DNA of 64,000 bases from Hydrogenophaga sp. (GTDB lineage Bacteria > Pseudomonadota > Gammaproteobacteria > Burkholderiales > Burkholderiaceae_C): NCBI RefSeq assembly GCF_018780075.1, contig NZ_JADMKB010000153.1, forward strand, positions 1-64,000, written 5' to 3'. Position 1 is the first letter of the stretch. Every line of letters starts with the position of its first letter. This document shows, in pieces, positions 38,537 through 55,401 of this stretch. The notes under the pieces were generated by a model that worked only from the letters and a program-made list of their open reading frames with translations, ran no database searches and was not told where the DNA came from. The position numbers were made by a program, and so were the translations under genes.

Positions 38537-39406
38537 TCAGGAACCCCAGATGTCCACGCCGGGCACGTGCTTCTCGGACAGCTCTTTCCACTTGCCGTTG
38601 TCGCGGATGGCCTTGATGCCGGCGTTCAGCGCATCGCGCAGGGCCGTGTCTTCCTTGCGCAGGGCCACACCGGCGCCAGCGCCGAAGTACTTGGCGTCGA
38701 ACTCCACCGGGATGCGGGTGCCGGCGCAGCTGTAGTCCTTGCCGTCGGGCGTGGACAGGAAACCGCCATTCACTTCCACGACGTCGGCCACGGTGCCGTC
38801 CAGGCGGCCCGACTTGATGTCGAGGTAGACCTGGTCTTGCGCGTCGTAAGGCACGATGGTCGCACCCGCGGTCTTCAGTTCACCCATGGCGTACTTTTCC
38901 TGGGTGGAGGCTTTCAGGACACCGATCTTCTTGCCTTTGAAGTTGGCCGCTTCGGCGCCCAGTTTGAGGGCCGTCTTCACGACCACGCAGGACGGCGTGT
39001 TGTAGTACTTGCCCGTGAAGTCCACGGCCTGCTTGCGCTCTTCGGTGATGGACATCGACGAGATGATCACGTCGTATTTCTTGGCCTGCAGGCCGGGGAT
39101 CATGCCGTCCCAGGCCTGTTCGACGAACACGCACTTGCTCTTGAGCTCGTCGCACAGCGCCTTGGCCACGTCCACGTCAAAACCGGCCGGCTCGCCCGCG
39201 TCGGTCTTGTAGGTGAAGGGCTTGTAGGTCGGGTCGATGGCGACACGCAGCTCGGGCCATGGGCTCGCTGGAGCCGGTGCGGCAGCGGGTGCTTCGGCGG
39301 TCGGTGCGGGAGCGGCCGGCGCAGCGGGTGCGGGCGTCTCGGTCTTGCCGCAGCCAACGAGGGCAGCTGCGCCGATGAGGCTGAGCGAGAGGAACAGGTG
39401 TTTCAT
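38537..39406 (-). CDS. aotJ: Basic amino-acid-binding lipoprotein AotJ (ArgT/HisJ-like)
   Basis: A 289-residue solute-binding protein. The N-terminal signal ends in a lipobox LVGC, so C19 should be lipidated. A Pro/Ala linker (~residues 25-48) precedes the family-3 binding domain: LRVAIDPTYKPFTYKTDAGEPAGFDVDVAKALC and ISSMSITEERKQAVDFTGKYYNTP. First gene of the aotJQMOP operon; its upstream region carries the dif-like site and the start of the mobile element. Confidence 0.9.
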   Translation of the reverse strand: MKHLFLSLSLIGAAALVGCGKTETPAPAAPAAPAPTAEAPAAAPAPASPWPELRVAIDPTYKPFTYKTDAGEPAGFDVDVAKALCDELKSKCVFVEQAWDGMIPGLQAKKYDVIISSMSITEERKQAVDFTGKYYNTPSCVVVKTALKLGAEAANFKGKKIGVLKASTQEKYAMGELKTAGATIVPYDAQDQVYLDIKSGRLDGTVADVVEVNGGFLSTPDGKDYSCAGTRIPVEFDAKYFGAGAGVALRKEDTALRDALNAGIKAIRDNGKWKELSEKHVPGVDIWGS

Positions 39407-39579: not shown

Positions 39580-39607
39580 TATTAACATAATATACATCGT
39601 GGAATGT
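39580..39607 (-). other. dif-like (XerCD) site with divergent XerC arm; candidate ICE attachment junction
   Basis: On the minus strand, ATGTATATTATGTTAA (39597-39582) is identical over 16 bases to the E. coli dif site (centre TGTATA plus nine bases of the XerD arm). The XerC arm (39597-39607) matches at only 3 of 11 positions. The XerD arm faces the chromosome (aotJ) and the divergent arm faces the element, as expected for a hybrid site made by Xer-mediated integration. Chance occurrence of such a match in 64 kb is very unlikely. Confidence 0.6.
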
Positions 39608-39624
39608 CAAAAACATCTAAAAAA

Positions 39625-39650
39625 GCAGGCGTTGAGCCTGCAAGTCTTTT
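39625..39650. terminator. Terminator-like hairpin at the element edge
   Basis: GCAGGC (39625-39630) and GCCTGC (39636-39641) around GTTGA, with an A-rich run before and CTTTT after, so it could work in both directions. It lies inside a wider inverted repeat TCGTGGAA (39597-39604)/TTCCACGA (39649-39656), whose left arm is the divergent XerC arm of the dif-like site. Confidence 0.5.
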
Positions 39651-39761
39651 CCACGAATATGTCTGAAGCGCGATGATCTATGCCGATCCCGCCTGATGCA
39701 CGTGTGCAATGTATCCATACTGCAGCCAAGTGTCAAACTTTGCTACGCATCTCCTGTCAAG

Positions 39762-42254
39762 TCATGCAATATGTAGAACCGGGTTGCTGGGTGGCACTGG
39801 CATAACCCAGCGCTCCGGCCTGATCAGGACGACCGCACTGAGCTTTCCGACTGGCACGCCACCGCGACCGAGCACATGATATTTAAGGATGTTTGACTTG
39901 CCTGGCCCCAACAAGTGCCAGCTTGCCTTGATGACCTCGCGCTGCACCTGCAGCGCCTTGGCTTCGGCTTCGGAGTCGTTCACCGACTCATGATTTGCCA
40001 CGTAGGCTTTGAAAACCAGCGGCGATACCAAGGCCATTCCCTCGGCCGTGAAGTGGATCATTGCACCCGTTTCGTTGTACTTCAGGTCACGGCTGGCCAA
40101 CCCCTGCTGCAGCCAGGTCACAAACGCCAAGGCGACGGTGGTGGGTTCAACTTGCTTGCCCGCCGACTCATGTGGGAGTTCTGGCAAGAACGGTGTCAGG
40201 ACCACCGGCGCGTGTTGAATGCGCGGTGACGAGGACGTGTCCGATCTGTCGGTCATGGAAGGACGACAGGTTCGTGACAGCAATGGACGGTGATCGGGTG
40301 GCTCCGGCATCGGCGGCAGCTCGGCCCTGGTGCTTTCTGCCTTCACCTGCGTTTTGGGTGACGTGGTTGTCGCAGGTTTGGATGCGATGGGAACGATTGG
40401 CGCAGTCGTCTTGGCCGCTGATGTGTTTGCACTCGCTGGAGGCGCCTCGGCTCTTTGAGGGGCCTTGGGTGCCTCTTTGAACAGCGCTGCATCGTCCTCA
40501 AAGTCCAACCACTTGTTCTTTGCATTGAAACCATCAGGTCCACCCATCTGCAGCGGTTCAAAATCTGTGGCAACTGGCTGCGATGGAGGTGCTGTGACAA
40601 CCTTGTGGTGGGTTGCCCCCTTCGTGTTGACATCAACCTTGGGCAGTTTGGTTGCGACAGCTTTGGTCCGATTGAACGCAGGAGCACGCAGGGCTGGTAT
40701 AGATTTGTCGCGAAAGCCTTTGGAGCCAGTGGAGGGTGCTGTAACTGCGCCAGTGTGCTCAACAACTGGTTTTGGCCCAGCTTGAGGTTTGCTGTCGTCA
40801 GGGGCTCGTGTGGGCGCTGAATATGGGTTCTCGTGACCCTGCGGTTGAAGGATTGCGCCAGCAGCATGTTCGGTCGAGGTTGCGACACGCTTTTGCTGGA
40901 TCTCGATACGCCCCACCATGGCAGGTGGGTACTGGTCTGCGTCAGGAAACAGCTTGTCCAGCGGAAAGCGCAACATGGTGAGCGAGTGGGAATAGGTTGC
41001 CCCACCCTCTTCCTGCTTGTCTTCATGGTTGTGACCCTGCAATCCACCAGCAGATGCGCCAGTTGAGGATTCGCCATGCACCTGCACATACCAGACAGCT
41101 TGTCCCGAATGAGGATTCAACTGGATGCAGCCGTATTCCTGCCATGTATCAAAAAGGCGGTCGTTTTTGTTCTCACCAGGGATGGATTCTTCGGGATGGT
41201 GCAGCTTGATGTGTTGCCTCACGCCATCGGCCAGGCGCTTTGCCACAAACCAGATGGCGCCTTCGTAGACCCAGCCTGCCGCGCCACTGCGGTTCAGCGG
41301 GAGCGCCGTACCGCTTCTGAGCATGTCCTTGATGGATTGCATCAGCAAGTCGATCAAGGGCACGCTTGTTGAGGTCGCAAATCGAGCACGGCTGCCACTG
41401 GTCAAGGCTTGTTGGGTGGAGGTCTGATCCGCTTTGCGGATGAGGGTGGCGAGCAAGCTGGTCTTGTCGCATCCAGACAGGTACTGCGCCAGCGAATCGA
41501 AGGCAAGCGGGCGGCGAGCCAGAAAGCTCAAGGCCGATGGCGGTGCAATCTGCTGCAACAACCCCATGGAGAGCTTGGAGTGGGCCTGGTAGTCGCGTGC
41601 TGATTTCGGGGTGAACTCGACCAGGTACTCGCCGCCTATGCGGTGCTGCGCCATCTCGGTGAGCGGGCCAGTCATGGGCACCCACCGCAACGGTGAATCC
41701 ATGTCGCCGCAGATCCAGGAAACCCGAAGGTCGGTCATGATCTTGCCGACATCGTGGAGCAGGGCCGCGAAGAAGACCACGTAGGTCCATTCATCGCGTT
41801 GTGCGTCCATTTCTTCAACAGGCGCACCCTCAGGGAAGAAATGCCCGTTGCGCCAGGTCATGGCCGCAAGCGTCATTTCCAGGGTGTGTGCAAGCAGGCC
41901 ACCGACGTGAGCGTGGTGGTGGCTCTCTGATGCGGGCATGAGCTGCACATACTCTGCGTAGCGCTGCACAGCGGGCTGTAGATCGCGGCGCCAGACCTGT
42001 GAGGATAAGCGTGACTGCCGCCACATCGCCTCCATGGCTCTGGAGCTTTGCACCAGCTCCAACAGGTCAACGGCGCTCAGGATTCGCAACCAGCCGTCGG
42101 CGTGTCCACGACATTCAATCTGCTTCCTGGGAGCTTCTTCCAGCGCGGCCAAGGCGCTGGCCGAAGCGGAAGGGCTTGCAGGGGCAGCCAATGGTGCGGG
42201 TCTGGGTGACCTAGGGTCCCACCGCTTGATCCAACGCATGCACTGACCAAACAT
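39762..42254 (-). CDS. traI: MobH-family conjugative relaxase (TraI-like, HD-domain)
   Basis: An 830-residue relaxase of the ICE/SXT TraI type (TraI_2/MobH). The N-terminal catalytic region has the H-rich metal-binding pattern SESHHHAHVGGLLAHTLEM and the HD signature FFAALLHDVGKIMTD (~residues 110-175). A long, low-complexity Pro/Ala/Thr middle (~residues 430-690) follows, and then the C-terminal TraI domain (AFVTWLQQGL...IRPERWVMP). MobH relaxases nick oriT and lead the transferred strand. The start is eight bases from the stop of the upstream small gene. Confidence 0.85.
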   Translation of the reverse strand: MFGQCMRWIKRWDPRSPRPAPLAAPASPSASASALAALEEAPRKQIECRGHADGWLRILSAVDLLELVQSSRAMEAMWRQSRLSSQVWRRDLQPAVQRYAEYVQLMPASESHHHAHVGGLLAHTLEMTLAAMTWRNGHFFPEGAPVEEMDAQRDEWTYVVFFAALLHDVGKIMTDLRVSWICGDMDSPLRWVPMTGPLTEMAQHRIGGEYLVEFTPKSARDYQAHSKLSMGLLQQIAPPSALSFLARRPLAFDSLAQYLSGCDKTSLLATLIRKADQTSTQQALTSGSRARFATSTSVPLIDLLMQSIKDMLRSGTALPLNRSGAAGWVYEGAIWFVAKRLADGVRQHIKLHHPEESIPGENKNDRLFDTWQEYGCIQLNPHSGQAVWYVQVHGESSTGASAGGLQGHNHEDKQEEGGATYSHSLTMLRFPLDKLFPDADQYPPAMVGRIEIQQKRVATSTEHAAGAILQPQGHENPYSAPTRAPDDSKPQAGPKPVVEHTGAVTAPSTGSKGFRDKSIPALRAPAFNRTKAVATKLPKVDVNTKGATHHKVVTAPPSQPVATDFEPLQMGGPDGFNAKNKWLDFEDDAALFKEAPKAPQRAEAPPASANTSAAKTTAPIVPIASKPATTTSPKTQVKAESTRAELPPMPEPPDHRPLLSRTCRPSMTDRSDTSSSPRIQHAPVVLTPFLPELPHESAGKQVEPTTVALAFVTWLQQGLASRDLKYNETGAMIHFTAEGMALVSPLVFKAYVANHESVNDSEAEAKALQVQREVIKASWHLLGPGKSNILKYHVLGRGGVPVGKLSAVVLIRPERWVMPVPPSNPVLHIA

Positions 42255-42261
42255 GGGTGTT

Positions 42262-42783
42262 TCAGCGCTCCATCAGGTATTCAATCAAGCTCTGCGCAGA
42301 AGCGCGGTACTCGCAGGGGCCGGAGAGATACAGGCGTGTGTAGTCGGGCAGCGTTTCACGCTTTGCAAGAAAGGACAACCAGGATTGTTCCAGTGGGTTC
42401 CACCAGATCGACTTCATCGGATCATCCAGGTTGCGCTGAATTTTGAAAGCAGCTCCATAGCTGGCAACGGGTGCGTTGGCCATGGCCACCGCCAGTCGAA
42501 AGCGCAAGGCACTCACGTCATCCTTGGCTTTCCGCTGCACCTCTTTGAACAGCAACTGCCGCACAAAATCGACCGCTTCGATGTCACCCGGCTCAAGCCA
42601 GGACTCGATGCCGTCGTACATGCGCAGGTAGCCCATGACGCGGCACGTCCAGTCTGCGAGACCGAGCTGCTCCAGGTACAGGGCCACCAGATACGGTCCG
42701 TGCTGCTGATCCAGGAAGTGCCGTCCATACGCCAGATCCAAGCTTGATGGCAACTGTTCGCGCTCTGGATACGCATGCGACAT
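42262..42783 (-). CDS. Hypothetical ICE protein next to the relaxase gene
   Basis: A 173-residue, probably soluble protein, helical and rich in aromatic residues (LAYGRHFLDQQHGPYLVALYLEQL; NPLEQSWLSFLAKRETLPDYTRLYLSG). No family recognised. It starts at 42783 with AGGGAAG upstream and ends seven bases before the relaxase start, so the two are co-transcribed. A relaxase accessory or oriT-binding role is only an inference from position. Confidence 0.65.
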   Translation of the reverse strand: MSHAYPEREQLPSSLDLAYGRHFLDQQHGPYLVALYLEQLGLADWTCRVMGYLRMYDGIESWLEPGDIEAVDFVRQLLFKEVQRKAKDDVSALRFRLAVAMANAPVASYGAAFKIQRNLDDPMKSIWWNPLEQSWLSFLAKRETLPDYTRLYLSGPCEYRASAQSLIEYLMER

Positions 42784-42908
42784 GTCGGACTTCCCTGTGT
42801 TTTTGACGTCACGACTCTAGGCAGGCAAACCCTTTCGCACAACCGGAAACCGGTTTTCGTTCAGGCAGGTTTCCGCTTGACGCAGGAGGGTTGTTTTGCT
42901 AGCGCATT

Positions 42909-42944
42909 GAGGGCGTCTCAATGCCCCGCCATTGAGACGCCCTC
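42909..42944. repeat. 15-bp perfect inverted repeat
   Basis: GAGGGCGTCTCAATG (42909-42923) and CATTGAGACGCCCTC (42930-42944) with a CCCCGC loop. The strongest hairpin in the gap; no T-tract follows, so it is not an ordinary terminator. Candidate relaxase or accessory-protein recognition structure. Confidence 0.7.
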
Positions 42945-43057
42945 CCCTTGCCTGTATCACCCGAATCCCCCGTTCCAGTAAGCCCTTTGCCACCGGAACC
43001 TTGGAGGTGGCGCCCTTTGGATAAGGCCATTAACCGGTAGAGAACCGTTACCCCGTC

Positions 43058-43079
43058 GTTGCCCGGCCCTCCGGGCAAC
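43058..43079. repeat. 9-bp perfect hairpin
   Basis: GTTGCCCGG (43058-43066) pairs with CCGGGCAAC (43071-43079) around CCCT. No T-run follows. Confidence 0.6.
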
Positions 43080-43174
43080 CCGCCTGCGCATCAGCGTGAT
43101 ACGAATAAGGAATGCTTCGAAACGTGCGAGCCTCTTTCTGTTCGTTACATCATTTCAACTACACCGTCAAGCCG

Positions 43175-43200
43175 AAACCTGCCCGCGAAATGGCAGGTTT
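43175..43200. repeat. 9-bp perfect hairpin overlapping an iteron
   Basis: AAACCTGCC (43175-43183) pairs with GGCAGGTTT (43192-43200) with an eight-base loop. Its right arm is part of the GGCAGGTTTCCG repeat. Confidence 0.6.
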
Positions 43201-43330
43201 CCGGTGGAGTTCTTCAACCCCGAATCTGACACTGCATGCACTGGCGACGCATCTCATGGACGCGTCACTTTTGCCCTAACCCTCGTCTTCATAGGCGATG
43301 CGCAGGGCGTCTTTTATGCAAGGTGTCTCG

Positions 43331-43888
43331 ATGAAACAGGGCTTCTTCTTCGGCTTGATCGCCATGGTGATGTTGGTGCCGTCGGTGTGGGCGCAGACGC
43401 GCGAAACCGCTGGCACTGATCAGGTCCAAGTGGGTCGATACACCACCCAATCGGCGCAACCGACCGCCGAACTCGCTGAGCCGCTGTCGGTCAACGCACA
43501 GCTCAATTTCCCGCGCCAGACCGTCTCCACGGTCGGCCAGGCGCTGGACTACACACTGATTCGCACGGGATACCGGATGGTGGACCCAATGGCGCTGAGC
43601 GACCAGGCGCGCAGCTTCCTGAATCTGCCGCTGCCTGAGTCTCAGCGGCGCATGGGACCGTATCCCGTAAGAACCATCCTCCAGATTTTGCTCAGCAAGA
43701 CATGGTCCCTCAAGACGGATGCGATCAGCCGACAAGTGTGGTTTGAACTGGCGGACACCACCAGCGCTGCGAGCGCGCCTGTCGTGGCTCGAACGGTCAG
43801 CAGAGAGCCAACGGAGCAACTGGTGGAGCCGGTCACATCGAGTGATGTCGACGCGAAGCGCGATGCAAAGCTCATGTACCGGAAGTGA
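43331..43888 (+). CDS. PilL-N/TIGR03748-like conjugative transfer protein
   Basis: A 185-residue exported protein with a signal peptide (FFFGLIAMVMLVPSVWAQ). The central pattern (VGRYTT, then VGQALDYTLIRTGYRMVDP and LNLPLPESQRRMGPYPVRTILQILLSKTWSLKTD) matches the PilL N-terminal/TIGR03748 family of ICE transfer regions, a type IV pilus-related periplasmic or outer-membrane module. First plus-strand gene after the candidate oriT region; the next gene starts 14 bases downstream. Confidence 0.75.
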   Translation: MKQGFFFGLIAMVMLVPSVWAQTRETAGTDQVQVGRYTTQSAQPTAELAEPLSVNAQLNFPRQTVSTVGQALDYTLIRTGYRMVDPMALSDQARSFLNLPLPESQRRMGPYPVRTILQILLSKTWSLKTDAISRQVWFELADTTSAASAPVVARTVSREPTEQLVEPVTSSDVDAKRDAKLMYRK

Positions 43889-43902
43889 TCGGGAGCAGCG
43901 AC

Positions 43903-44835
43903 ATGGACGACCTGCAGGAACACCAACGCCGCCAGGATGAAGACGAATTCTGGGAAGACAAGCAACGGGACGCGACGCGCCCAAGGCACCTTCGACCACG
44001 CGACCTTTCCACCCCCAACAACGACGCACCAGTAGCAATGACCTCACGACCTGTGCAAGAAGACCTCCGCAACGAAGCGACGGCTCACCACGCTGCTGAT
44101 GCCCCAGTTTTCAGGGAATCGGTTGCTCAGCAGCCAGCACGCAAGAAGAGCAGCATGGGCATGCTGCTGATCCTTGCGTTCTTGGTGCTCGGAGCCCTCG
44201 CCTACCAGGGGTACCGGATGTGGCAGAAACGCAATGCCACGGCAACTGAAGCGGGCGGCGAGCAGTCTGCCGCGGCACTCGCTCCGGCGCTCCCGCCAGT
44301 TCTAGGCGCAGCACCGCTGCCAGCGACGGTGGGCGTTCCCATCCAGGTGGTGGCACCGGTTGAGCCAGCTGCTCCCACGCCCGAGCAGATCGAACTCAAT
44401 GCGCGGCTGGACCGCATGGAAGCTCGGATGACCGAAGTCATCGAAGGCTTGCGCGCACAGGGCTACATCATCGGCGACGCTGGCGCGAACGGAGCACCGC
44501 TGCCCGCCACAGCCTTTGCGCCGCGCCAGGTCATCCCAACGGCACCTGTGGTTGCGAAGCCAGTGCGCCGGGTGTCTGTTCGCAGGTTCAACCCAGCTAC
44601 TTCGGTTGCCAAGGCGCAGCCAGCAGTCACGCGGCAACAACTGCTGTCGGTTGACATGTGGGATGGCCGTCCTTCGGTGGTGGTCGGCAATGGCGATGCG
44701 AAGAACCCGCAGGTCAAGGTTCTCCAGCAAGGCGACACCTTCAACGGCGTCACCCTGAATACGGTGGATGTCGCTGGCCAACGGGCGACCTTCATCGATG
44801 GCGCTCGCTCCATCTCCTTGGACGTTTCCAACTGA
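43903..44835 (+). CDS. Conjugation-associated bitopic membrane protein, PilP-like C-terminus (putative)
   Basis: A 310-residue protein. A charged cytoplasmic N-terminus (~85 residues) is followed by one membrane helix (MGMLLILAFLVLGALAYQGY), a Pro/Ala linker, a short coiled segment (LNARLDRMEARMTEVIEGLRAQ) and a C-terminal domain (VVVGNGDAKNPQVKVLQQGDTFNGVTLNTV...ISLDV). That last domain resembles the beta-rich C-termini of PilP-like assembly proteins. This similarity is by eye only. ATG 43903 has GGGAG eight bases upstream. Confidence 0.6.
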   Translation: MDDLQEHQRRQDEDEFWEDKQRDATRPRHLRPRDLSTPNNDAPVAMTSRPVQEDLRNEATAHHAADAPVFRESVAQQPARKKSSMGMLLILAFLVLGALAYQGYRMWQKRNATATEAGGEQSAAALAPALPPVLGAAPLPATVGVPIQVVAPVEPAAPTPEQIELNARLDRMEARMTEVIEGLRAQGYIIGDAGANGAPLPATAFAPRQVIPTAPVVAKPVRRVSVRRFNPATSVAKAQPAVTRQQLLSVDMWDGRPSVVVGNGDAKNPQVKVLQQGDTFNGVTLNTVDVAGQRATFIDGARSISLDVSN

Positions 44836-44843
44836 GCCGCGCC

Positions 44844-45413
44844 ATGAAACACCAACGCATCAAAACGGCCCAGGCCGTGGCGATCACGCTGATCAGCGCG
44901 GTTCTGTGTAGCGGAGCATTGGCGCAATCACGCTTCATGAACCAGACGCAGGAGCAACAAACACAGACGGGTGAGTCGTCCCAACAGCGTGTCGCGCGCC
45001 TGCACTCCCAACTGGATGCCAACGACCTCCTGGTGGCCCAAATCTGGGGTCTGAGCACGGAGGAGATGGTCCGCGCCAAGGTGCTGCTCAAAGGGCCGCG
45101 CGCATCGTTCTCCGTGGAGAACCTCTCGCCTGTCGAAGCACTGGGCATCCACGCCCGCGATGAAAAAGAGCGCACGAAGTACGCGGAGATGTTCGCCCGT
45201 GCCCTGCAGGCCGATGTGGAACGCAGCCTGGCATGGAACCGGACCTTCATGGAGGTCCAAGGTCGCTTGTTCCCGAATCAGTCGGTGATGGACTACGCGG
45301 GACAAGAGCCCGTGGCAGCGCCGACAGCCACCGCCGACATGCTGGGTGTGCCACGCACGCTGATCAGAGACCCCTCGTCGCCAGCTCGCGCAGTACCCGC
45401 CAAAAAGCGCTGA
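44844..45413 (+). CDS. TIGR03759 (PFL_4693) family ICE protein
   Basis: A 189-residue exported protein with a signal peptide ending GALAQ. The family core is visible: IWGLSTEEMVRAKVLLKGPRASFSVENLSPVEALGIHARDEKERTKYAEMF and RTFMEVQGRLFP. Function within the transfer apparatus is unknown; in other ICEs it sits before the lytic transglycosylase, as here. Eight bases separate it from the preceding gene. Confidence 0.8.
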   Translation: MKHQRIKTAQAVAITLISAVLCSGALAQSRFMNQTQEQQTQTGESSQQRVARLHSQLDANDLLVAQIWGLSTEEMVRAKVLLKGPRASFSVENLSPVEALGIHARDEKERTKYAEMFARALQADVERSLAWNRTFMEVQGRLFPNQSVMDYAGQEPVAAPTATADMLGVPRTLIRDPSSPARAVPAKKR

Positions 45414-45420
45414 TCCAGTC

Positions 45421-46233
45421 ATGTCGCAGCAGTCCATCATGTCCAACACTTGCCAGGCACTTCGCCTGTGGCGGGTGTCGCGCACGCTTGCCGTGCTGGT
45501 GGCTGTCTCGGTGCAAGGGATTTCGGCACGTGCCCAAGGTGATGGAACGTCCTGGATTGATCCAGGACTGCACACCAAGACCATCTACCCTGCAGCATCC
45601 GGCGCGGTGCACCGCACACCCACCTCCATGGTGATGTCCGGTCCTGACACAGAAACCGACACCAAGGTGATCTGGCCCAAGGCACTGAGCGAGACAGAAA
45701 GAGCCATCGTCGCCCGCCGCTTGCTGCCTCAGGCATTCGAGGCATCCGCTGCGCAAAGGCCAGAGGCCGTCACACGTTCGTCCAGGGCCACTCCCTTGAT
45801 GCTCAAGACGCTGGTTCAGGCTGCTGAGCGGTTCCAGGTCGATGCCTACCTTGTCAAGGCGGTTATCCACGCTGAGTCAGCCTTCAACCCGCGTGCCCGC
45901 AGTCCCAAGAATGCCATTGGCCTGATGCAGGTTTTGCCAGGTACGGCGCGTGATCTGGGCTTGTCGGCCCAACCCACCGCATCGGTCGAGCAGCTGCTAA
46001 CCGATCCGCGAGTGAGCATCGTGGTGGGCACCAAATACCTAGCCGAACAGCTTGAGCGTTTCGGCGGCAATGTCGAGCTGGCCGTCGCCGCCTACAACGC
46101 TGGCCCGGGCGCCGTGATCAGGGCAGGGAACAAGGTGCCGCCCTACGCTGAAACACGGGCCTACGTCCAGCGGGTGATGTCGCTGGCACGCAGCTACCGG
46201 CAGCGCCAAACTTTGCAGGAGGTGCAGTCATGA
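45421..46233 (+). CDS. Lytic transglycosylase (SLT domain) of the transfer system
   Basis: A 270-residue periplasmic peptidoglycan hydrolase (VirB1-like role: local opening of the cell wall for the secretion channel). After a signal peptide and a ~100-residue variable part, the SLT domain begins at ~residue 125. It has the catalytic Glu in VIHAESAFNPRARSPKNAIGLMQ, then GTKYLAEQL and VAAYNAGPGAV. It overlaps the next gene by four bases (ATGA at 46230). Confidence 0.88.
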   Translation: MSQQSIMSNTCQALRLWRVSRTLAVLVAVSVQGISARAQGDGTSWIDPGLHTKTIYPAASGAVHRTPTSMVMSGPDTETDTKVIWPKALSETERAIVARRLLPQAFEASAAQRPEAVTRSSRATPLMLKTLVQAAERFQVDAYLVKAVIHAESAFNPRARSPKNAIGLMQVLPGTARDLGLSAQPTASVEQLLTDPRVSIVVGTKYLAEQLERFGGNVELAVAAYNAGPGAVIRAGNKVPPYAETRAYVQRVMSLARSYRQRQTLQEVQS

Positions 46234-46802
46234 GCGCCCTGCATTTTTGGTGGGTCACCCGCGTGCTCGCACGGCTGTCGCTCGTGGCTCTGACTGCCCT
46301 GCCCTTGGCAGCACCCTGCGCCGATCTGACAGTGATCCATGACGGCGCGGGCAGTGTGCCGCTGGGCACCTATTACGGCCACCTGGTTGCCGGTGTTGAC
46401 CAGCCTGGCGTGTTGCCCGGAACGAAGTTCCCCTTGGCTTCACGGCTCCAACCCGGGCAGTTGGCAAACGGCAAAGTGGGCAAGGGTTTGTTTGAAGCCC
46501 ATTGGCTGGCACACCCGATTTTTGTGCTGGGCACCGACAAGTTGAGCTTTCAATGGTTGCAACTGCACCGCCAGACACTGACGGAACTGGGCGCATCAGG
46601 GCTGGTGATCGAGGCCGGTTCTGAAACCGACTACAAAGACCTGCAGGCGTTTGCGGGTGGCTTGTCGTTGGCACCCGTGCGGGGTGATTGGCTGGAGCGA
46701 AAGCTCATGTCCGCAGGCATCACGGTATACCCACTGGTGGTGATGCCCGATGGCTTCATCACCAACTCCCCCAGCAGCCCATCAGCGTTGGGTGTGCAAT
46801 GA
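46230..46802 (+). CDS. TIGR03765 (PFL_4695) family ICE protein
   Basis: A 190-residue exported protein with a signal peptide (LARLSLVALTALPLAAPCA). Family features: LTVIHDGAGSVPLGTYY, LEPGQL-like SRLQPGQLANGKV, and the C-terminal GDWLERKLMSAGITVYPLVVMPDGF. Function unknown; it always precedes the TraD coupling gene in this ICE class. It overlaps both neighbours by four bases. Confidence 0.82.
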   Translation: MSALHFWWVTRVLARLSLVALTALPLAAPCADLTVIHDGAGSVPLGTYYGHLVAGVDQPGVLPGTKFPLASRLQPGQLANGKVGKGLFEAHWLAHPIFVLGTDKLSFQWLQLHRQTLTELGASGLVIEAGSETDYKDLQAFAGGLSLAPVRGDWLERKLMSAGITVYPLVVMPDGFITNSPSSPSALGVQ

Positions 46803-49096
46803 AGAACGACAACGCACTCGAAGCGCTCTTGCGCCCGCCAGTCGAGCTGTGGAGCACGGCCATGGCATGGGGTGTGGCGTTGGTGGCCATCGCTGCGCCC
46901 TGGGCCTTGATGATGCCGCCCGTGCTGGGCTGGGCCATTGCCGTTCTCGCTGGCTACTTCGGATGGGTCCGCTGCAAACAGGCTATCGAGATCCTGCGCT
47001 ACCAGCACGGGATGAAATATTACAAGGTCACCAAGGTGGCCCCGCACAAGATTCCCGTAGGCGCGGGCCAGTATTACCTGGGTCAAGGCTTCGAATGGAC
47101 CCAGCAGCACACACAGCGCAAGCGCGATGCCACGCGAACGGATGCGGAGCGGTTTGTCAGGCCGCAGCCACGCGAACTGGCCTTGCGCAAGGTGGGCGTG
47201 CAACTTCGGGAGTGGTCTGTATCGGTCCCTGAACTGCCCTCAAAGCTCAAGGCAGTGAAACAGGTCGCTGGCGTGATCGCGAATTACGACAGCTGGCTGA
47301 ACCCCTTCCAGGCCCATGCCGATCTGGGAGGTTCGCCCATCCTTCACGGTGTCGGCGCGCTGGCTGAGCGGCCCATCACCATGCGCCAGTCATCGCGCAC
47401 GGGTCACATGATCGTGCTGGGCACCACGCGGGTGGGCAAGACGCGCATGCTGGAGATGCTGGCCACCCAGGACATCCATGCGGGACACGTGACCATCGTC
47501 ATCGATCCCAAGGGCGATGCTGACCTCATGCTGCGGCTGTATGCCGAGGCGCAGCGCGCCGGGCGCGCCGATCAGTTCTACCTGTTTCACCTGGGCTACC
47601 CGGACATTTCCGCGCGCTACAACGGCATCGGCAACTTCAGTCGCATCACCGAGGTGGCAGGCCGTGCCACCAACGCCCTGCCCTCGTCGGGCAACAGCGC
47701 GGCGTTCAAAGAATTCTCCTGGCGCTTCACGAACATCGTGGCGCAGGCACAGGTCGCGCTGGGTCGCGTGCCGACCTACGAGACGCTGCTGGCCGACGTG
47801 ACAGGCATCGACCCCCTGTTCATGGACTACGCCATGATGGTCTTCCGGGCCAAGGCCGCAGAGGGCCAGTTCACCGACTTCCAGGACCGTCTGGAGCACC
47901 TGGCCGGCCTGATCGAGAAAAAGAAGGCGCCCGTCCCGCGCAGCCTGGCCGACCGCCCGGTCGAGCTGGTCGCCATGTTCCTGCTCATCAAGGAAGCTCG
48001 GATCGTTGACAAAGTGTTGACGGGCCTGGCCGCAGCTTTCTCGTATGAGCGCAGCTTCTACGAAAAGATCATCGCCAGCCTGGGGCCGTTCCTGGAGAAG
48101 CTCACCTCCGGCGCCGTGGGCAAGCTGATCTCTCCAGACTATTTCGATCCCGACGACAAGCGCCCGATCTTCGACTGGATGACGGTCATGCGCCAGGGCG
48201 GCATCGTCTACGTGGGCCTTGATGCCTTGTCCGATGCGGTGGTGTCCTCAGCGGTCGGCAACAGCATGCTGGCCGACCTGGTGTCCGTGGGCGGCAAGCT
48301 CTACAAGTCCGGGCTAGATCCGCACCACCCTGAGGGCAAGATCATCCTGCCGACGGTGTGCTGTCATTTCGACGAGGTGAACGAAATCTGTGGTCCCGAG
48401 TTCGTGCCCATGGTCAACAAGCTGGGCGGCTCCGGGTTTCGTATCACGGCCTACACCCAGTCGATGTTCGACATCGAGGCCAAGGTTGGCGACAAGGCCA
48501 AAGCGGGCCAGATTCTGGACAACTTCAACCACCTGGTGATGCTCCGGGTCCGCTCGGTCACCACGGCCAACCTGTTGGCCGAACAGGTGCCGCAGGTGGA
48601 TGTGGTGCACCTGACCCCCATGAGCGGCGTCAGCGACACCGCTGCCGAAGGCACTGGCGTGGACTTCACCAGCCGCAACAACGACATCGTGACCACCACC
48701 AAGGTCGCCATGATCGAAGCGGCCGATGTGCTGGAGCTGCCGCAAGGCCAAGCATTTGCCTTGCTTGAAGGCAACCGGCGATTCAAGCTGCGCATCCCGT
48801 TGGCCGACACCGCCAACGATCCGTTCGTGCCCGAGTCGCTCAAGAAGGTCGCGACGGACATGAAAGCACGCTACCGGACATCCGAGCAGTGGGCTCGCGA
48901 AACCGATTGGCTGGGCAATCAACCTTTGGGTGCCAATGCCACAGGCGTGATCGACACCAACCTGGCCTTCGGCGAGGAAGATGAATCCGTGGCTGAGGGC
49001 AGCGAAGCCGCCCATGCTGGGACGGAAGCACGCAGCGCTGCACAAACCGTTGAAGCCAACACGGCCTTCACCGAGATGGCTGGAGGTCTGGGATGA
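46799..49096 (+). CDS. traD: Conjugative coupling factor TraD (SXT/TOL subfamily)
   Basis: A 765-residue VirD4-type coupling ATPase linking the relaxosome to the secretion channel at the inner membrane. Two N-terminal membrane segments (STAMAWGVALVAIAAPWALMM and VLGWAIAVLAGYFGW) precede the P-loop (LGTTRVGKTRM, ~residues 210-220) with VIDPKGDADLM nearby, the Walker B-like FDEVNEICG and the arginine-finger region further on. ATG 46799 overlaps the previous stop (ATGA) and is preferred over a longer frame. Confidence 0.9.
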   Translation: MKNDNALEALLRPPVELWSTAMAWGVALVAIAAPWALMMPPVLGWAIAVLAGYFGWVRCKQAIEILRYQHGMKYYKVTKVAPHKIPVGAGQYYLGQGFEWTQQHTQRKRDATRTDAERFVRPQPRELALRKVGVQLREWSVSVPELPSKLKAVKQVAGVIANYDSWLNPFQAHADLGGSPILHGVGALAERPITMRQSSRTGHMIVLGTTRVGKTRMLEMLATQDIHAGHVTIVIDPKGDADLMLRLYAEAQRAGRADQFYLFHLGYPDISARYNGIGNFSRITEVAGRATNALPSSGNSAAFKEFSWRFTNIVAQAQVALGRVPTYETLLADVTGIDPLFMDYAMMVFRAKAAEGQFTDFQDRLEHLAGLIEKKKAPVPRSLADRPVELVAMFLLIKEARIVDKVLTGLAAAFSYERSFYEKIIASLGPFLEKLTSGAVGKLISPDYFDPDDKRPIFDWMTVMRQGGIVYVGLDALSDAVVSSAVGNSMLADLVSVGGKLYKSGLDPHHPEGKIILPTVCCHFDEVNEICGPEFVPMVNKLGGSGFRITAYTQSMFDIEAKVGDKAKAGQILDNFNHLVMLRVRSVTTANLLAEQVPQVDVVHLTPMSGVSDTAAEGTGVDFTSRNNDIVTTTKVAMIEAADVLELPQGQAFALLEGNRRFKLRIPLADTANDPFVPESLKKVATDMKARYRTSEQWARETDWLGNQPLGANATGVIDTNLAFGEEDESVAEGSEAAHAGTEARSAAQTVEANTAFTEMAGGLG

Positions 49097-49857
49097 GCGC
49101 GGCACCGAGCAAAGGGCCAGCCCGTGCCCGCACGCGGGGACCGGTCGAGCTGGGCCTGGAAGTGGCTTTCGGGTTGTTGTTCGTCACCCTCTTTGCCTGG
49201 TTCATCGGCGTCCTGATCGAGATCGTGGGCTCGTACACGCTGTGGCGGGAGGAAGGTGAGCTTCACTCCCAGGAGATCGTCGCCCAGGATCTGGAGTACA
49301 TCGCCATGGCGCCGCGCAGCTTGCTGGTGCGTGACACCGTTGAATGGTCCCACCGCGTGGTGGGCTGGGTCGAGCTGCCTTACGAACGGGTGGGCCTCAA
49401 GCGCTGGTACGAGCGTTTGCACGGAGAGAACGCGCCCGTGCTGTCGCAGCCCTCGGCCCAACAGTCGATCCTGAGCCAGCGCGTGGGCAAGGCCAATGCC
49501 TCCCTGCAGCACAACCTGAGCAAGTGGGTGCTGATGTCCATGTACGTCGCGCAAGACGTGCTGTTGCGACTGAGCGTGGCCGCTTTCGCCCTGCCCGCTT
49601 TTGTCCTCGCCTGCATGGTCGGCATCGTCGATGGACTGGTGCGCCGAGACCTGCGGCGATGGGGCGGTGGACGGGAAAGCTCCTTCGTCTACCACCACGC
49701 CAAACGCTACACGCAATGGGCACTCACAGGCGGTTTCGGCCTGTACCTGGCCTGGCCGTTTGGCGGCTTCAACCCGGCCTACATGGTGTTCGTTTTCACG
49801 ATGCTCGTCGCTTTCACGATGTCCACAGCAGTCGCCGCCTTCAAGAAATATGTCTGA
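49093..49857 (+). CDS. TIGR03747 (PFL_4697) family ICE membrane protein
   Basis: A 254-residue inner-membrane protein with about four hydrophobic segments (VAFGLLFVTLFAWFIGVLIEIVG; LLRLSVAAFALPAFVLACMVGIVDG; two near the C-terminus). DGLVRRDLRRWGGGRESSFVYHHAKR is the family hallmark. It overlaps traD by four bases and probably works with it. Confidence 0.85.
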   Translation: MSAAPSKGPARARTRGPVELGLEVAFGLLFVTLFAWFIGVLIEIVGSYTLWREEGELHSQEIVAQDLEYIAMAPRSLLVRDTVEWSHRVVGWVELPYERVGLKRWYERLHGENAPVLSQPSAQQSILSQRVGKANASLQHNLSKWVLMSMYVAQDVLLRLSVAAFALPAFVLACMVGIVDGLVRRDLRRWGGGRESSFVYHHAKRYTQWALTGGFGLYLAWPFGGFNPAYMVFVFTMLVAFTMSTAVAAFKKYV

Positions 49858-49885
49858 CCCAACCCATCAACCCACTGGAGCCTCT

Positions 49886-50251
49886 ATGTCCCACAAGCAA
49901 GTCCAGGCCGCGCCGCATGTGGTGCAGCCCACCGAACAGCCCAAGGCGCACCGCGCATGGTTGATCGCCATGCTGATCGCCTGCGCCAGCGCGGCCCCCA
50001 TGGCGCAGGCCGCATCGGGCGATACCGACACCGAGCGCGAGAACCTCGCTCGCATTGATTCGGAGCTGGAGCGGGTGCAGGTGATGGTGAAGGACGCTGC
50101 AGACCGCGCCCCGAGCGGGCAGCGCGTCAAGTTCCGCTACGACTGGTTGCTGCAAGACCTGCAGTTGCTGCGCAAAGGCGTGGCGGACCACGTTGACGCG
50201 CCGCGCCAACCGCGCCCGGTGCCGCCGCTTCGCGGCGACTACCGCCAGTAA
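49886..50251 (+). CDS. RAQPRD-family ICE protein
   Basis: A 121-residue periplasmic protein with a signal peptide (WLIAMLIACASAAPMAQA). The mature part, ENLARIDSELERVQVMVKDAA and RVKFRYDWLLQDLQLLRKGVADHVDAPRQPRPV, fits the RAQPRD family, whose name motif appears here in altered form. It lies between PFL_4697 and PFL_4701 genes as usual. Confidence 0.8.
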   Translation: MSHKQVQAAPHVVQPTEQPKAHRAWLIAMLIACASAAPMAQAASGDTDTERENLARIDSELERVQVMVKDAADRAPSGQRVKFRYDWLLQDLQLLRKGVADHVDAPRQPRPVPPLRGDYRQ

Positions 50252-50270
50252 GGCCACGGGAAATCACACG

Positions 50271-50504
50271 ATGAATTCCACCATGGCCGCCGCCTTCGAG
50301 GTGGGCTCGGGGGTAGACCCCAGCGCACTGAGGGTTTCGATTCAGGTGATCGCCATGGGCGTGATCTTTCTCGTGTTTGCCTGGGTCATGTCCCAGATTT
50401 TCAGCGCCTATCAGAGCGACCGTGCAACGGTCTCTGAGGCAGTCACAAGTTCCCTCAAAGCCACCGTGATTTTGTGCTTGTTGGTCACGGTGATTTTCTG
50501 GTGA
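50271..50504 (+). CDS. TIGR03758 (PFL_4701) family small ICE membrane protein
   Basis: A 77-residue protein with two membrane helices (VIAMGVIFLVFAWVMSQIFSAY and ATVILCLLVTVIFW). FEVGSGVDPSALRV and the overall form fit the PFL_4701 family. Likely part of the mating-pair channel or a pilin-like component. Confidence 0.82.
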   Translation: MNSTMAAAFEVGSGVDPSALRVSIQVIAMGVIFLVFAWVMSQIFSAYQSDRATVSEAVTSSLKATVILCLLVTVIFW

Positions 50505-50574
50505 CGCAAGTCGCCATCTCGGTGCCCTTGTTCCTCAACTTGCTCATTTGATTTTTTAACCAGGAGAAATGTCC

Positions 50575-50976
50575 ATGTCACCTCATCCCCTCGTCAACAA
50601 GGTGCGTGCTGCGCGCAGCAAGCTCAGCCAGTGGGCACTTGTCCCCGGCGTTGCCCTCATGTGCAGCCCGGTGTTCGCCGCGCTACCCACCATGCCCACA
50701 CCGGGCACCGACATGAACGGCAACGCGGTCGCAGCCGGCGACTGGATGGGCTCCATGAGTGCCTGGTTCAAGGCCGGTCTCGCGATTCTGGGCCTGGTGT
50801 TGCTGGCTTTCATGTTCTTCAAGGTCGTCGGCGGCGCCGTCACCAAGTGGGGTGAGTACACCAAGGGGCGTGCGGACATCGGTGACCTGAAGGAGTACCT
50901 GATCATGGGCATCATCGTGGTGGGCTTTGCCATCCTGATGGTGACCTATGCGTTCCAGACCATCGGTCAGACCTGA
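50575..50976 (+). CDS. TIGR03745 (PFL_4702) family ICE membrane protein
   Basis: A 133-residue protein: signal sequence (ALVPGVALMCSPVFAALP), then two membrane helices (FKAGLAILGLVLLAFMFFKVVGGAV and YLIMGIIVVGFAILMVTYAFQTI) with GEYTKGRADIGDLKEY between them. The layout resembles VirB2/TrbC-type pilins. ATG 50575 has AGGAG at the right distance; an ATG six bases earlier is too close to it. Confidence 0.83.
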   Translation: MSPHPLVNKVRAARSKLSQWALVPGVALMCSPVFAALPTMPTPGTDMNGNAVAAGDWMGSMSAWFKAGLAILGLVLLAFMFFKVVGGAVTKWGEYTKGRADIGDLKEYLIMGIIVVGFAILMVTYAFQTIGQT

Positions 50977-50998
50977 TCGGCGCTGAGCGAGAACCAGC

Positions 50999-51478
50999 AT
51001 GAACGCAGAAGCCGAATCAGAACGCAACGCTCAGCAGGAGGCCGACCCGACGCGCTTTCGTGCGCCGGTCACGGACCGTGTGAACGTCGAGCCCGCGATC
51101 ATTCGCGGCATGACCGTGACGGAGGCCAAGGTCATTTCCTGGGTGACCGTTCCGCTGTTCCTACTGCTCGGCGGCATCTTGTTGCTGATCACCGGCTTCT
51201 GGCAGTTCATCCTGGTCCTCGGCGTCGCAGGCCCCTTGGTGTCTCTCTGGTACGCCTCGGCGTACCTGCAAAAGGCCAAGCGCGGTCGCCCGGACGGGTA
51301 CTACACCCAGGCCATCCACCTGTGGCTGGCCAAGCGCGGCTTGGTCACCAACAAGTTCCTCACCCACAACGGCCAGTGGGATCTCGGACGTTCCTTGGAC
51401 CTCAATCTCGCTCATCCGTATGAGCTGAATGCGAAATCCGCCAAGACGCACACCACCACCCAACGCAAGACACCATGA
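50999..51478 (+). CDS. TIGR03750 family conjugative transfer protein
   Basis: A 159-residue inner-membrane protein. Family marks: DRVNVEPAIIRGMTVTEAKV, two membrane helices (VTVPLFLLLGGILLLITGFWQFILVLG), then LQKAKRGRPDGYYTQAIHLWLAKRG. The position before PFL_4703 is standard; comparable in place to VirB3/TraL. Four-base overlap with the next gene. Confidence 0.83.
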   Translation: MNAEAESERNAQQEADPTRFRAPVTDRVNVEPAIIRGMTVTEAKVISWVTVPLFLLLGGILLLITGFWQFILVLGVAGPLVSLWYASAYLQKAKRGRPDGYYTQAIHLWLAKRGLVTNKFLTHNGQWDLGRSLDLNLAHPYELNAKSAKTHTTTQRKTP

Positions 51479-52287
51479 GCAGCCAACAATCCCTGGACGC
51501 CCTCGCCAATGAGCGCGCGAGCCACGCCAACACACGGCGCTTGTTTCTGGGTCTGACCATCGTCTCGGTGGTCGGCATGGCGCTCCTGTGGGCCAAGCCC
51601 AAGCAGATCGACCTGCACATCAACCCGGACCTGCGTGCTGGTGAGCAGGTGACCGTCTCGAACGGTACGGCGCCCGTGCCCAATCCCAACGTGTACAGCT
51701 TCGCTTACTACGTGTGGCAGCAGGTCAACCGCTGGCAAACCGATGGTGGCGCCGATTACGGCACCCAGATCTACAACTTCCAGTCCTACCTGACACCCCG
51801 TTGTCAGGCCCAGCTCCAGGGCGACATGGATGCCCGCAGCCGCAGCGGCGAGCTGCGCATGCGCACGCGCCAGATCACAGAAATCCCTGGCCTCGGTTTT
51901 CAGGACAACCGCGTCCTCAGCGAAGGCCCTGCCGCATGGAATGTGCTGCTGGACATGCAGGTGATGGAAACGTTCCGTGGCCAGGCCGTCAAGGACACCT
52001 TTGTCCGCTACCCCGTTCGGGTGGTGCGCTTCGATGTGGACCGCGAGCGCAACCCATTCCGCCTGGCCTTGGACTGCTTTGGCAGCAACAAGCCCGCCCG
52101 CATTGACGTGAAGGACAGCGCCGTCAGCGGTTCGACCGCAGCCAGCGTGGCACCCGCGTTGCTGCCCGGCCTGAGCGATCAACCGGCCTCGGCCCTGGGT
52201 TCACAGAACCGGGACATGCCTGCGGTCGCTGTGCCCCCTGCTGCTCCAGTGGCACTGCCTGCAGCCGGTGCGCTCTTGAAACCTTGA
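51475..52287 (+). CDS. TIGR03746 (PFL_4703) family ICE protein (VirB8/TraE-like)
   Basis: A 270-residue protein with one N-terminal membrane helix (RRLFLGLTIVSVVGMALLWA). A periplasmic domain with VYSFAYYVWQQVNRWQTDGGADYGTQIYNFQSYLTPRCQAQLQ follows, typical of PFL_4703. The arrangement is like TraE/VirB8 scaffold proteins. The C-terminus is Ala/Pro/Val-rich. It starts within the preceding stop codon. Confidence 0.85.
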   Translation: MSSQQSLDALANERASHANTRRLFLGLTIVSVVGMALLWAKPKQIDLHINPDLRAGEQVTVSNGTAPVPNPNVYSFAYYVWQQVNRWQTDGGADYGTQIYNFQSYLTPRCQAQLQGDMDARSRSGELRMRTRQITEIPGLGFQDNRVLSEGPAAWNVLLDMQVMETFRGQAVKDTFVRYPVRVVRFDVDRERNPFRLALDCFGSNKPARIDVKDSAVSGSTAASVAPALLPGLSDQPASALGSQNRDMPAVAVPPAAPVALPAAGALLKP

Positions 52288-52302
52288 TGAAGGAATCTGA
52301 AC

Positions 52303-53406
52303 ATGACACAACCATCACGCTTCCGTCTGATCCAGCGTCCAAGCCAAACGGCACTCACCCTGGCCATGGGCCTGGTGAGCTGTATCGCCTTCTCCGCTTT
52401 TGCGCAGGTCCATGACCTGGGCACCGTCGGCGCAGCGCCTGAACTGATCGGCACAGCACCGGTGAATCCACCCATGGTCGCAGCGGCACCCGCAGCCGCA
52501 TCGGCCAAGTCCGCGCCCATGGTGGGCGATCTCGACCTTGGGCAGAACATGGGTGAAGCGACATCCGGGAAAGCAGCCGCCGCAGCTGTCGCCGGGGTCG
52601 CCCGCAAGGCCGCTCAGGAAGCCGAACAGGGCCGTTCGGCTTCCCCCAATGCGCGCAAAAAGCCGGTGATCAATGCCTTGCCCGCCCACCGCGAGGGCGT
52701 TGAACGCGCCGTCTTTGCCCGCCTGCCGGTGCGGGTGGGTCTGCCGGTGAAGCGCGAACGCCTGATCACCCTGCCCTCTCCCGCAGTCCTGCATGTACCC
52801 AGTGACATCGAGGCCGTGGCCCGTGTGGAGGCCATCGACCGAACGATCTATGTCACGGCACTGGTCCCGTTCACCTCCATTCGCATCGTGGCCGAGCTGA
52901 TCGAAGGCGGGCAGCAGATTCCGTTGGACCTGGTGGCCAATGCGCAAACCGCCGCCGCCAGCCAGGAGCTGGAGATTTTCATTGAACGCGGCCGGGGCAC
53001 TGCTGCTGAGGCTCAGGCTGCGGCCACCGCCGATGAGACACCGGCTGCGGACATGGTGGAACTGACCCGGTTCGCCTCACGCATGTTGTACGCACCCCGG
53101 CGTCTCGCCGTGGGGCAACCGGGCGTCAGCCAGGTGCAGGTGAGCAACCGCCCTGTGGTGGGTCTGGTGCGCGGCGCTCTCGTCGAAACCGTACCGATGG
53201 GCCAGTGGCGCTCGGCAGGTCTGTATGTCACAGCCGTTCGCATCACCAACAAGTCCAAGCAGCCCTTGGAGATCCCGTTGGACAACCTGCGCGGCAAATG
53301 GATCGCTGTCACCGCCCAGCACGGACGGCTGGGCGCGGCCGGCAGCGAAACCGACACCAGCGCGCTCTACCTGATCTGCGACCGGGCGTTTGACGCCTGC
53401 CTCTGA
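52303..53406 (+). CDS. TIGR03749 (PFL_4704) family ICE protein (TraK-like)
   Basis: A 367-residue exported protein with an N-terminal hydrophobic signal (TLAMGLVSCIAFSAFA). An Ala-rich linker follows, then the conserved region starting EGVERAVFARLPVRVGLPVKRERLITLPSPAVLHVP and, near the C-terminus, GLYVTAVRITNKSKQPLEIPLDNLRGKWIAVTAQHGRLG. By position it is the TraK/VirB9-like outer-ring component. Confidence 0.85.
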   Translation: MTQPSRFRLIQRPSQTALTLAMGLVSCIAFSAFAQVHDLGTVGAAPELIGTAPVNPPMVAAAPAAASAKSAPMVGDLDLGQNMGEATSGKAAAAAVAGVARKAAQEAEQGRSASPNARKKPVINALPAHREGVERAVFARLPVRVGLPVKRERLITLPSPAVLHVPSDIEAVARVEAIDRTIYVTALVPFTSIRIVAELIEGGQQIPLDLVANAQTAAASQELEIFIERGRGTAAEAQAAATADETPAADMVELTRFASRMLYAPRRLAVGQPGVSQVQVSNRPVVGLVRGALVETVPMGQWRSAGLYVTAVRITNKSKQPLEIPLDNLRGKWIAVTAQHGRLGAAGSETDTSALYLICDRAFDACL

Positions 53407-53416
53407 GGAACACACC

Positions 53417-55343: not shown

Positions 55344-55401
55344 TCACCCACTCGAACCGCCTTTCACATCTTCAATCGACGCAGAGCAAGAGAACACAAC
55401 C

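Follow-up and report, generated by a model that had tools for sequence, protein, structure and literature searches.

Organization of the locus

The stretch of DNA analysed here (hereafter the window) comprises 64,000 nucleotides of a Hydrogenophaga genome (G000) and is part of contig C105, which runs to position 65200. It contains a chromosomal flank, a dif site and the traI end of a putative ICE, the other end of which is located on contig C38 (66108-66135). The following features were assigned:

38537..39406, minus strand: chromosomal flank, gene for an aotJ-type amino-acid-binding protein (PF00497)
39580..39607, minus strand: dif, traI-side attachment site of 28 bp, consisting of XerC arm ACATTCCACGA, centre TGTATA and XerD arm TTATGTTAATA
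39580..39590, minus strand: XerD arm, intact and host-derived by comparison with same-genus arms and empty-site genomes
39591-39596, minus strand: centre TGTATA
39597..39607, minus strand: XerC arm ACATTCCACGA, normal for the genus and probably element-derived
39597..64000, no strand: part of the ICE inside the window
39619..39641, minus strand: terminator-like hairpin GCAGGC/GCCTGC followed by T's, downstream of traI, from the sequence
39649..39656, plus strand: the XerC-arm octamer TTCCACGA in inverted form, retained mainly at Hydrogenophaga-type ends
39762..42254, minus strand: traI, MobH relaxase of PFGI-1 class (PF07514/PF07515, NF041494 MobH, TIGR03760)
45421..46233, plus strand: lytic transglycosylase (PF01464), presumably of the conjugation apparatus
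46230..46802, plus strand: PFL_4695-family ICE protein (TIGR03765)
46688..49096, plus strand: traD coupling protein (TIGR03754, 928 bits), open frame given from the frame start, not necessarily the true start
49093..49857, plus strand: TIGR03747 ICE membrane protein (DUF4400)
51475..58356, plus strand: core of the mating apparatus with PFL_4703, TIGR03749, TIGR03752 and the TraC/PFL_4706 ATPase
59010..61726, plus strand: TIGR03756 and TIGR03755 ICE proteins

A MobH-type traI, traD and the PFL_47xx set are all present, as in ICEs of the MPF-G/MobH type, and the matches to TIGR03744, 03746, 03749, 03752, 03755 and 03756 point to a PFL_47xx-type apparatus, which we take to be of class MPF-G, and not to MPF-F. 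With the ICE_PFGI_1 ParB model the ParB of the element scores 137 bits, below the cut-off of 144. The 3' end of traI is separated from dif by 154 bp without any listed open frame, and the hairpin with its T run in this interval reads as an intrinsic terminator downstream of traI; judged by eye, a similar hairpin is found at many related ends. No tRNA gene was detected in the window with ARAGORN, in line with an earlier interpretation made from the letters of the window alone (the sequence-only reading). An E1-E2-type ATPase and a DsbB-like protein are among the likely cargo on the second contig (G000 C38:7510-10014 and 5594-6541; L068).

Characterization of the dif site

The core ATGTATATTATGTTAA is located on the minus strand at 39582-39597, where the sequence-only reading had recognized identity to 16 consecutive bases of E. 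coli dif; its orientation, with the XerD arm facing aotJ and the XerC arm facing the element, was confirmed as well. Within the whole assembly of 5.39 Mb and 191 contigs, TATNTTATGTTAA occurs once, namely at the window site. The suggested check for another intact dif yielded no other dif core in the assembly, and no site with up to three mismatches to the E. coli-type form CGCATAATGTATATTATGTTAA was found anywhere in these 5.39 Mb.

The same reading had regarded the XerC arm as broken. The exact core ATNTATATTATGTTAA was detected in 21 of 60 genomes, 17 of 36 from the same genus (a count that includes the window's own genome) and 4 of 24 from the same order; many of the remaining 19 same-genus genomes, which lack the exact core, are partial assemblies. 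All 17 same-genus genomes with the exact core carry an XerC arm of the pattern TTC[CTG]AC[GA]A. Since this pattern is shared by all of them, the interpretation of a broken arm was dropped: the XerC arm departs from E. coli but represents the norm of the genus, so that 39580-39607 can be regarded as an intact dif and, judged by its sequence, is a real site and the host's own. Genuine alteration is found outside the window, in the XerD arm that belongs to the second site (contig C38).

Concerning the position on the chromosome, the orthologous site was examined in Hydrogenophaga crassostreae (G005) by a skew scan of 20 samples of 20 kb each. GC skew is positive up to 2.36 Mb (first sample -0.009) and negative from 2.56 Mb, which places dif (2.53 Mb) at the skew switch, the position proposed for checking by the sequence-only reading. 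KOPS motifs are distributed 28:11 before the switch and 9:21 after it.

The octamer TTCCACGA had further been described as recurring in inverted form around the hairpin, in analogy to the folded half-sites of CTX phage. The inverted copy is indeed present at 39649-39656, but is not general across related ends. Over 19 ends the best inverted 12-base match amounts to 8 in the window, 10 in G005, G027, G021, L083 and L085 (the last with another spacing), 9 in L093 and between 5 and 8 at the other 12 ends, and the CTX analogy was abandoned. An inverted repeat of CTX type replacing the XerD arm was also rejected: over 13 ends the summed match was 90 compared with a shuffle mean of 87, a value reached by 54 of 300 shuffles, and a p of 0.04 was obtained for one of the 13 ends (G005).

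Empty site and second site

An element-free relative had been expected to join the aotJ flank to an intact dif, and this is the arrangement of the complete genome G025, which aligns to the window with 92% identity from 19615 to 39609, where homology ends. Homology of a second genome, G035 (84%), extends up to 39611. In both genomes dif is located at the end of homology, the aotJ-type gene adjoins it, and no relative of the window's TraI was detected at 1e-20. Homologues of the traI region lie on the same side of dif in G005, G027 and G021.

A second dif-like site bounding the other end of the element, which had likewise been predicted, was found both in H. crassostreae and in the window's own genome. 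In G005, which carries a homologous 132-kb element, a further site in direct orientation is found 131.8 kb from dif (28-mer matches at 2400998 and 2532822, the latter near the skew switch), and this further site has a conserved XerC arm and centre and a divergent XerD arm. The second site of the window genome, C38:66108-66135, reads ATATTCCACGA-TGTATA-TTATTGGATTA in an 11+6+11 alignment and equally combines an intact XerC arm and centre with a divergent XerD arm. The element therefore lies at the host dif and has a dif-like site at each end. Outside this site C38 is colinear with the right flank of the G025 dif, at 76.6% for 0.6 kb and 90.4% for a further 9.3 kb, G025 containing roughly 7 kb of additional DNA in this region; inside it, C38 matches the parA end of the G005 element with 73.7% over 2.2 kb. 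The XerC arm ATATTCCACGA is common to the empty site of G025 and the second site on C38: recombination in silico of this arm with the centre and XerD arm of the window yields the exact 28-bp dif of G025, and the present XerC arm of the window is one base off that dif. Comparison of the ends thus places the point of insertion in the 6-bp centre of dif.

Based on the second site, the colinear flanks and the arm recombination, the element can be assigned to C105:39597-65200 and C38:1-66135. This corresponds to about 92 kb on two contigs, if all of C38:1-66135 belongs to it, and unassembled DNA may lie between the two parts. It counts against this assignment that the two ends are found on different contigs with an unjoined middle.

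Distribution of dif-adjacent elements

For a broader view, 62 loci containing a relative of traI were taken from GTDB genomes; 60 of them include 310 bp of sequence on the downstream side of the gene. In 12 of the 60 loci these 310 bp contain a dif-like core matching at 14 or more of 16 bases, always in the same orientation, two of the 12 (L084 and L086) being G021 and G027 again; for the 60 loci there was none on the other strand, none in an upstream control stretch and none in 50 shuffles. Within 4 kb downstream, a set that includes GGI-like traI-traD-DUF4400 elements, a core was found on the plus strand in 22 of 52 loci and on the minus strand in two (L131, which also has one on plus, and L136). 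The dif-adjacent elements recur in records of Hydrogenophaga, Acidovorax, Diaphorobacter, Comamonas, Alcaligenes and Pseudorhodoferax. When 27 genomes were searched for a dif core with up to one mismatch, 22 yielded a single copy, two yielded more than one and three yielded none.

At the opposite end, parA homologues were identified in 15 of 23 genomes, and 11 of these 15 have, by pattern, a site composed of XerC arm and centre about 100-145 bp upstream of parA (in G027 at a contig edge). Of the others, three have centres that appear altered by eye and one has no site. Where both lie on the same contig (G067, G069, G070, G073, G005), the distance from parA to dif is 88-141 kb. Strain TGS_PRO26 shows the pattern that an exchange of arms at the centre would produce: its traI end has a foreign XerC arm, ATAAGAGACAA, and its parA end has the Hydrogenophaga arm GATTCCACGA. 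In the contig of L083 the traI end continues into a 99-base stretch that matches the parA end of G060, a genome of the same sample series (08E140C01), at all 99 positions. These joined ends could represent the predicted circle junction, for which the sequence-only reading had proposed to search, or a tandem array.

Several observations count against insertion of these elements at dif by Xer recombination. For 30 of the 62 traI loci, some of them short, no nearby dif was assigned. In G060 the parA-side site is present and no dif was found within 10 kb of traI. In four genomes (G060, G061, G068 and G079) traI and the dif core, whether exact or with one mismatch, lie on separate contigs, although the element ends are joined in G061 and G068 has a dif-like site of another centre. 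The parA-side sites of Alcaligenes and Pseudorhodoferax have changed centres, which is odd for an exchange through the centre.

Three further loci deserve mention. In Hydrogenophaga NFH-34 (L085) two dif-like cores are found 6.9 kb apart beyond traI (G063:C1:27271 and 34185) and perhaps delimit a second small dif-bounded module. Pseudorhodoferax soli (G068:C11) has dif-like sites with the centre CATACA at about 155.3 kb (traI end) and about 144.2 kb (parA end); with the dif core on another contig, these possibly represent the dif of a second replicon. A Methylophilaceae genome (G084:C4:330795 and 443740; L262-L267) harbors an element in mirror orientation at dif, whose ends share the XerD arm and bases beyond and diverge in the XerC arm; between the two sites an XerD is encoded which is sister to another XerD of the same genome.

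We interpret these loci as a family of MobH ICEs of Burkholderiales that reside at dif. For the window, the second site, the sole dif core, the skew position in H. crassostreae, the empty site of a related genome and the joined ends of a relative support the proposal of the sequence-only reading that an ICE of PFL_47xx type entered at dif via Xer. We assign a probability of roughly 0.88 to the reading that a MobH, PFL_47xx/MPF-G ICE of about 92 kb on two contigs was inserted at dif by Xer recombination, with its traI end in the window.

Comparison with known elements

Among conjugation-type islands, the gonococcal genetic island (GGI), a large integrative mobile element exploiting Xer (IMEX) of Neisseria, has been the standing example of residence at dif; it is not known to encode a XerD paralogue. 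As summarized in the relevant part of a review, one of its ends carries an intact dif, and the site at the opposite end combines a conserved XerC arm and centre with a divergent XerD arm (PMC5357621); GGI-like elements are described as carrying a MobH relaxase, parA, parB and an MPF-F apparatus (PMC4207684). The elements presented here resemble the GGI in their location at dif, the same two-site layout and the MobH relaxase, parA and parB, and one divergent XerD arm with conserved XerC arm and centre is found in G000, G005 and 11 of 15 parA-side loci. They differ in their PFL_47xx/MPF-G genes and in size, with 88-141 kb between parA and dif compared with the 57 kb of the GGI. TLC, a vibriophage of Vibrio cholerae, is the IMEX of this species encoding XafT, and its attP has the same layout as the sites described here. 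This attP consists of a dif-like XerC arm and centre with a divergent XerD side (PMC5357621), and XafT is described in an excerpt of PMC9765430 as a XerD-activating factor, not a XerD paralogue. The layout found here is of the type of the gonococcal island and TLC phage; the analogy to CTX is not supported.

ICEs of the PFGI-1/ICEclc type, known examples of which use a P4-type integrase at a tRNA, have traI, traD and PFL_46xx/47xx proteins of an MPF-G apparatus in common with the element, which differs from them in having neither a tRNA in the window nor a listed frame between traI and its end. LME-1 of Legionella is located at dif, uses the host Xer system and has one modified and one wild-type site (PMC9765430). 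It is thus alike in being a mobile element at dif with this pair of sites, but is phage-like and depends on the single-recombinase XerL system.

Recombinases and proposed mechanism

The sequence-only reading had assumed the lack of an integrase. The element does encode tyrosine recombinases, on contig C38 and far from the ends:

C38 11773-12900: element-encoded XerD-like tyrosine recombinase of 375 aa
C38 54936-56957: DUF3701 tyrosine recombinase of 673 aa

In addition, pieces of host XerC and XerD were identified. The search for tyrosine recombinases covered 13 genomes in which an MPF-G-type traI lies at dif; other dif-located elements, such as L087, L093, L095, L099 and L103, were outside its scope. 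The XerD-like protein is encoded on the element side of dif or parA in 11 of them (G000, G005, G021, G027, G063, G066, G067, G069, G073, G075 and G078); for G000, G021, G027, G063, G066, G075 and G078 only one element end lies on the same contig as the protein. It is absent from the complete genome of Alcaligenes faecalis AU14 (G070), the element of which contains one other tyrosine recombinase (a 409-aa frame), and was not found in G077, a MAG for which no second host-type Xer is listed either. Pseudorhodoferax soli (G068), with its dif-like site of another centre, also encodes the protein; it was not detected in the stretches taken of G060, G080 and G003, although a homologue (61%) is attributed to the G060 MAG.

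The 12 XerD-like proteins form one clade with a support of 100/100, placed beside host XerD rather than XerC; the fork separating the XerD and XerC sides is weak (58/85), and a tree of 38 rows retains the clade with weak deep forks. The catalytic residues R, H, R, H and Y are conserved in all 12 proteins, and the catalytic lysine is replaced by R in two. The best database relatives outside their own close group, among the best 120 of 364 listed, show 36-43% identity, the named ones being mostly called XerD, and the search for plasmid homologues at 1e-40 gave one match (36%). Independence from FtsK was also considered from the contact residues E183/E184 of E. coli XerD (PMC5052618): the pair is unmatched in the element protein and, by the alignments, also in the host's own XerD, and is uninformative. 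In two genomes with GGI-like dif elements, extra XerC-type proteins which are sisters to each other (G082:C16:80152-81096 and G086:C7 at about 330.5 kb) are encoded at distances of about 40 kb and 30 kb from dif, toward the element, and represent possible cases of an element-borne XerC.

By comparison of the sites, the attachment site of the circular form of the element is composed of a XerC arm, the TGTATA centre and the divergent XerD-side arm; most likely it pairs with dif. XerC and a XerD, of host or element origin, would then exchange strands at the centre, a reaction suggested by the arm exchange. By the same comparison, the traI end after integration consists of a complete dif with the XerC arm of the element and the XerD arm of the host, and the parA end of a degenerate site with the XerC arm of the host and the divergent arm of the element. 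The acting enzymes and the role of FtsK we infer: host XerC presumably acts at the XerC arm, and the divergent arm would be served either by weak action of host XerD, on the model of the gonococcal island, or by the element's own XerD-like recombinase, which most of these elements encode.

The first of these options, in which host XerC and XerD carry out the whole reaction strictly as in the gonococcal island and the XerD-like protein has another task such as the resolution of multimers of the circular form, has in our estimate a nearly even chance. It is in agreement with difGGI, which has the same layout and, according to the part of the review concerned, works with host XerCD (PMC5357621), with the two of 13 element genomes (Alcaligenes faecalis AU14 and G077) in which no XerD-like protein was found, and with the position of the xerD-like gene in the middle of the element, adjoining neither end. 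A XerD-like protein that is catalytically complete by its residues in 11 of 13 genomes argues against it, as does the parA-side site of the Alcaligenes element, which lacks the protein and carries a XerD-type arm (TTATGTTAAGT); this would fit a need for the additional protein wherever the arm is divergent, although it is one case.

The same observations suggest, with a likelihood clearly below even, that the XerD-like protein serves the divergent arm; our estimate was lowered slightly because the protein was not found in G077. Equally tentative is the wider proposal that the captured XerD paralogue recognizes this arm and pairs with host XerC, which would form a hybrid complex at dif under the control of the element, and that the elements have resided at dif for a time sufficient to gain a KOPS polarity that guides FtsK, which would make them integral components of the terminus and not visitors.

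Insertion at dif by the 673-aa DUF3701 recombinase near the parA end, independently of host Xer, is improbable. Its catalytic motifs are visible by eye, and DUF3701 recombinases are encoded by the four Hydrogenophaga elements G000, G005, G021 and G027, with a homologue of the 673-aa protein in G073. But with phmmer at 1e-5 no counterpart was found in the elements of Alcaligenes (G070) or Diaphorobacter (G069, where the only match was one of 27 bits to its XerD-like protein), three same-genus genomes without a traI relative at 1e-20 (G001, G032 and G033) encode DUF3701 proteins as well, and the gene lies 9-10 kb inside the element end. That a conjugative element inserted elsewhere came to lie beside dif by chance is hardly credible given the exact dif boundary, the second site, the empty site, the recurrence in several genera and the 12 of 60 loci compared with none in shuffles.

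Polarity of KOPS

Counted from parA to traI in seven elements or element parts, KOPS (GGGNAGGG) occurs 113 times in forward and six times in reverse orientation, and thus points toward the intact dif; this count includes four homologous Hydrogenophaga elements, and G000, G069, G070 and G073 alone give 68:2. Among 7183 gapped 7-mers, limited to motifs with forward excess and at least 15 copies, KOPS ranks first for skew with a z of 9.8, followed by 5.3 for the next motif. The bias is similar in forward frames (44:2), reverse frames (52:1) and elsewhere (17:3), and for the 55 alternative arrangements of six G, one A and one N the count is 2161:1133. For the subset G005/G021/G027, KOPS is first by z and third by fraction. 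A further element, G067, has a ratio of 27:1, and the mirror-orientation element of G084 one of 10:1, again toward the intact dif at the traI end. The chromosome beside dif shows the expected bias in weaker form (7:2, 2:4, 7:2, 2:7, 1:5 and 5:1).

In the vicinity of traI, KOPS was counted 76:4 in 17 loci with dif, 34:6 in 15 GGI-like loci also with dif and 54:39 in 30 loci without an assigned dif. Four loci (L082, L090, L097 and L101, each 4:0) are polar despite having no assigned dif. Ratios of 15:9 and 0:4 were obtained for the Variovorax contig G080:C6 and for 60 kb of G003:C4, respectively. Reversed KOPS were observed in four loci where no dif was found near traI (L106, L107 and L113 with 0:5 each and L118 with 0:6, in total 0:21).

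Inserts near the terminus and prophages are described in an excerpt of PMC5993296 as carrying KOPS in the permissive direction. As the relatives without dif are mixed and some of them polar, selection in place is not fully separable from inheritance, that is, from a polarity due to shared ancestry. If the ICE was inserted at dif by Xer recombination as proposed above, FtsK steered by KOPS would cross the element and arrive at the intact dif next to traI. Because FtsK would be led to this site, dimer resolution could continue and the degenerate site would not be fired at each division. In the GGI, FtsK dissociates XerCD from the degenerate site and inhibits excision, as stated in the part of the review dealing with it (PMC5357621), and by analogy this inhibition may hold here as well.

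Significance of dif-resident ICEs

The element is of a known kind, namely an IMEX with the layout of the GGI. For GGI-like sequences elsewhere, the describers of the GGI could not determine the insertion site, according to a passage of PMC4207684. As far as the literature was searched, MPF-G ICEs at dif in several Burkholderiales genera, together with the XerD clade and the KOPS polarity, are new: no equivalent of dif-located ICEs, of an ICE-encoded XerD or of KOPS in ICEs, and no description of KOPS polarity in ICEs, was found among the literature matches listed. In particular the element-encoded XerD-like recombinase and the polarity of KOPS look new.

The present results extend residence at dif to a group of large ICEs found in several genera of Burkholderiales, for which an empty site, joined ends and an exchange of arms were observed. 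The XerD clade and the KOPS polarity make it a testable question how elements at dif escape or recruit the control by FtsK, and likewise whether mobile elements adapt to the chromosome terminus. Together, both features suggest how an insert of 90-140 kb beside dif may be tolerated.
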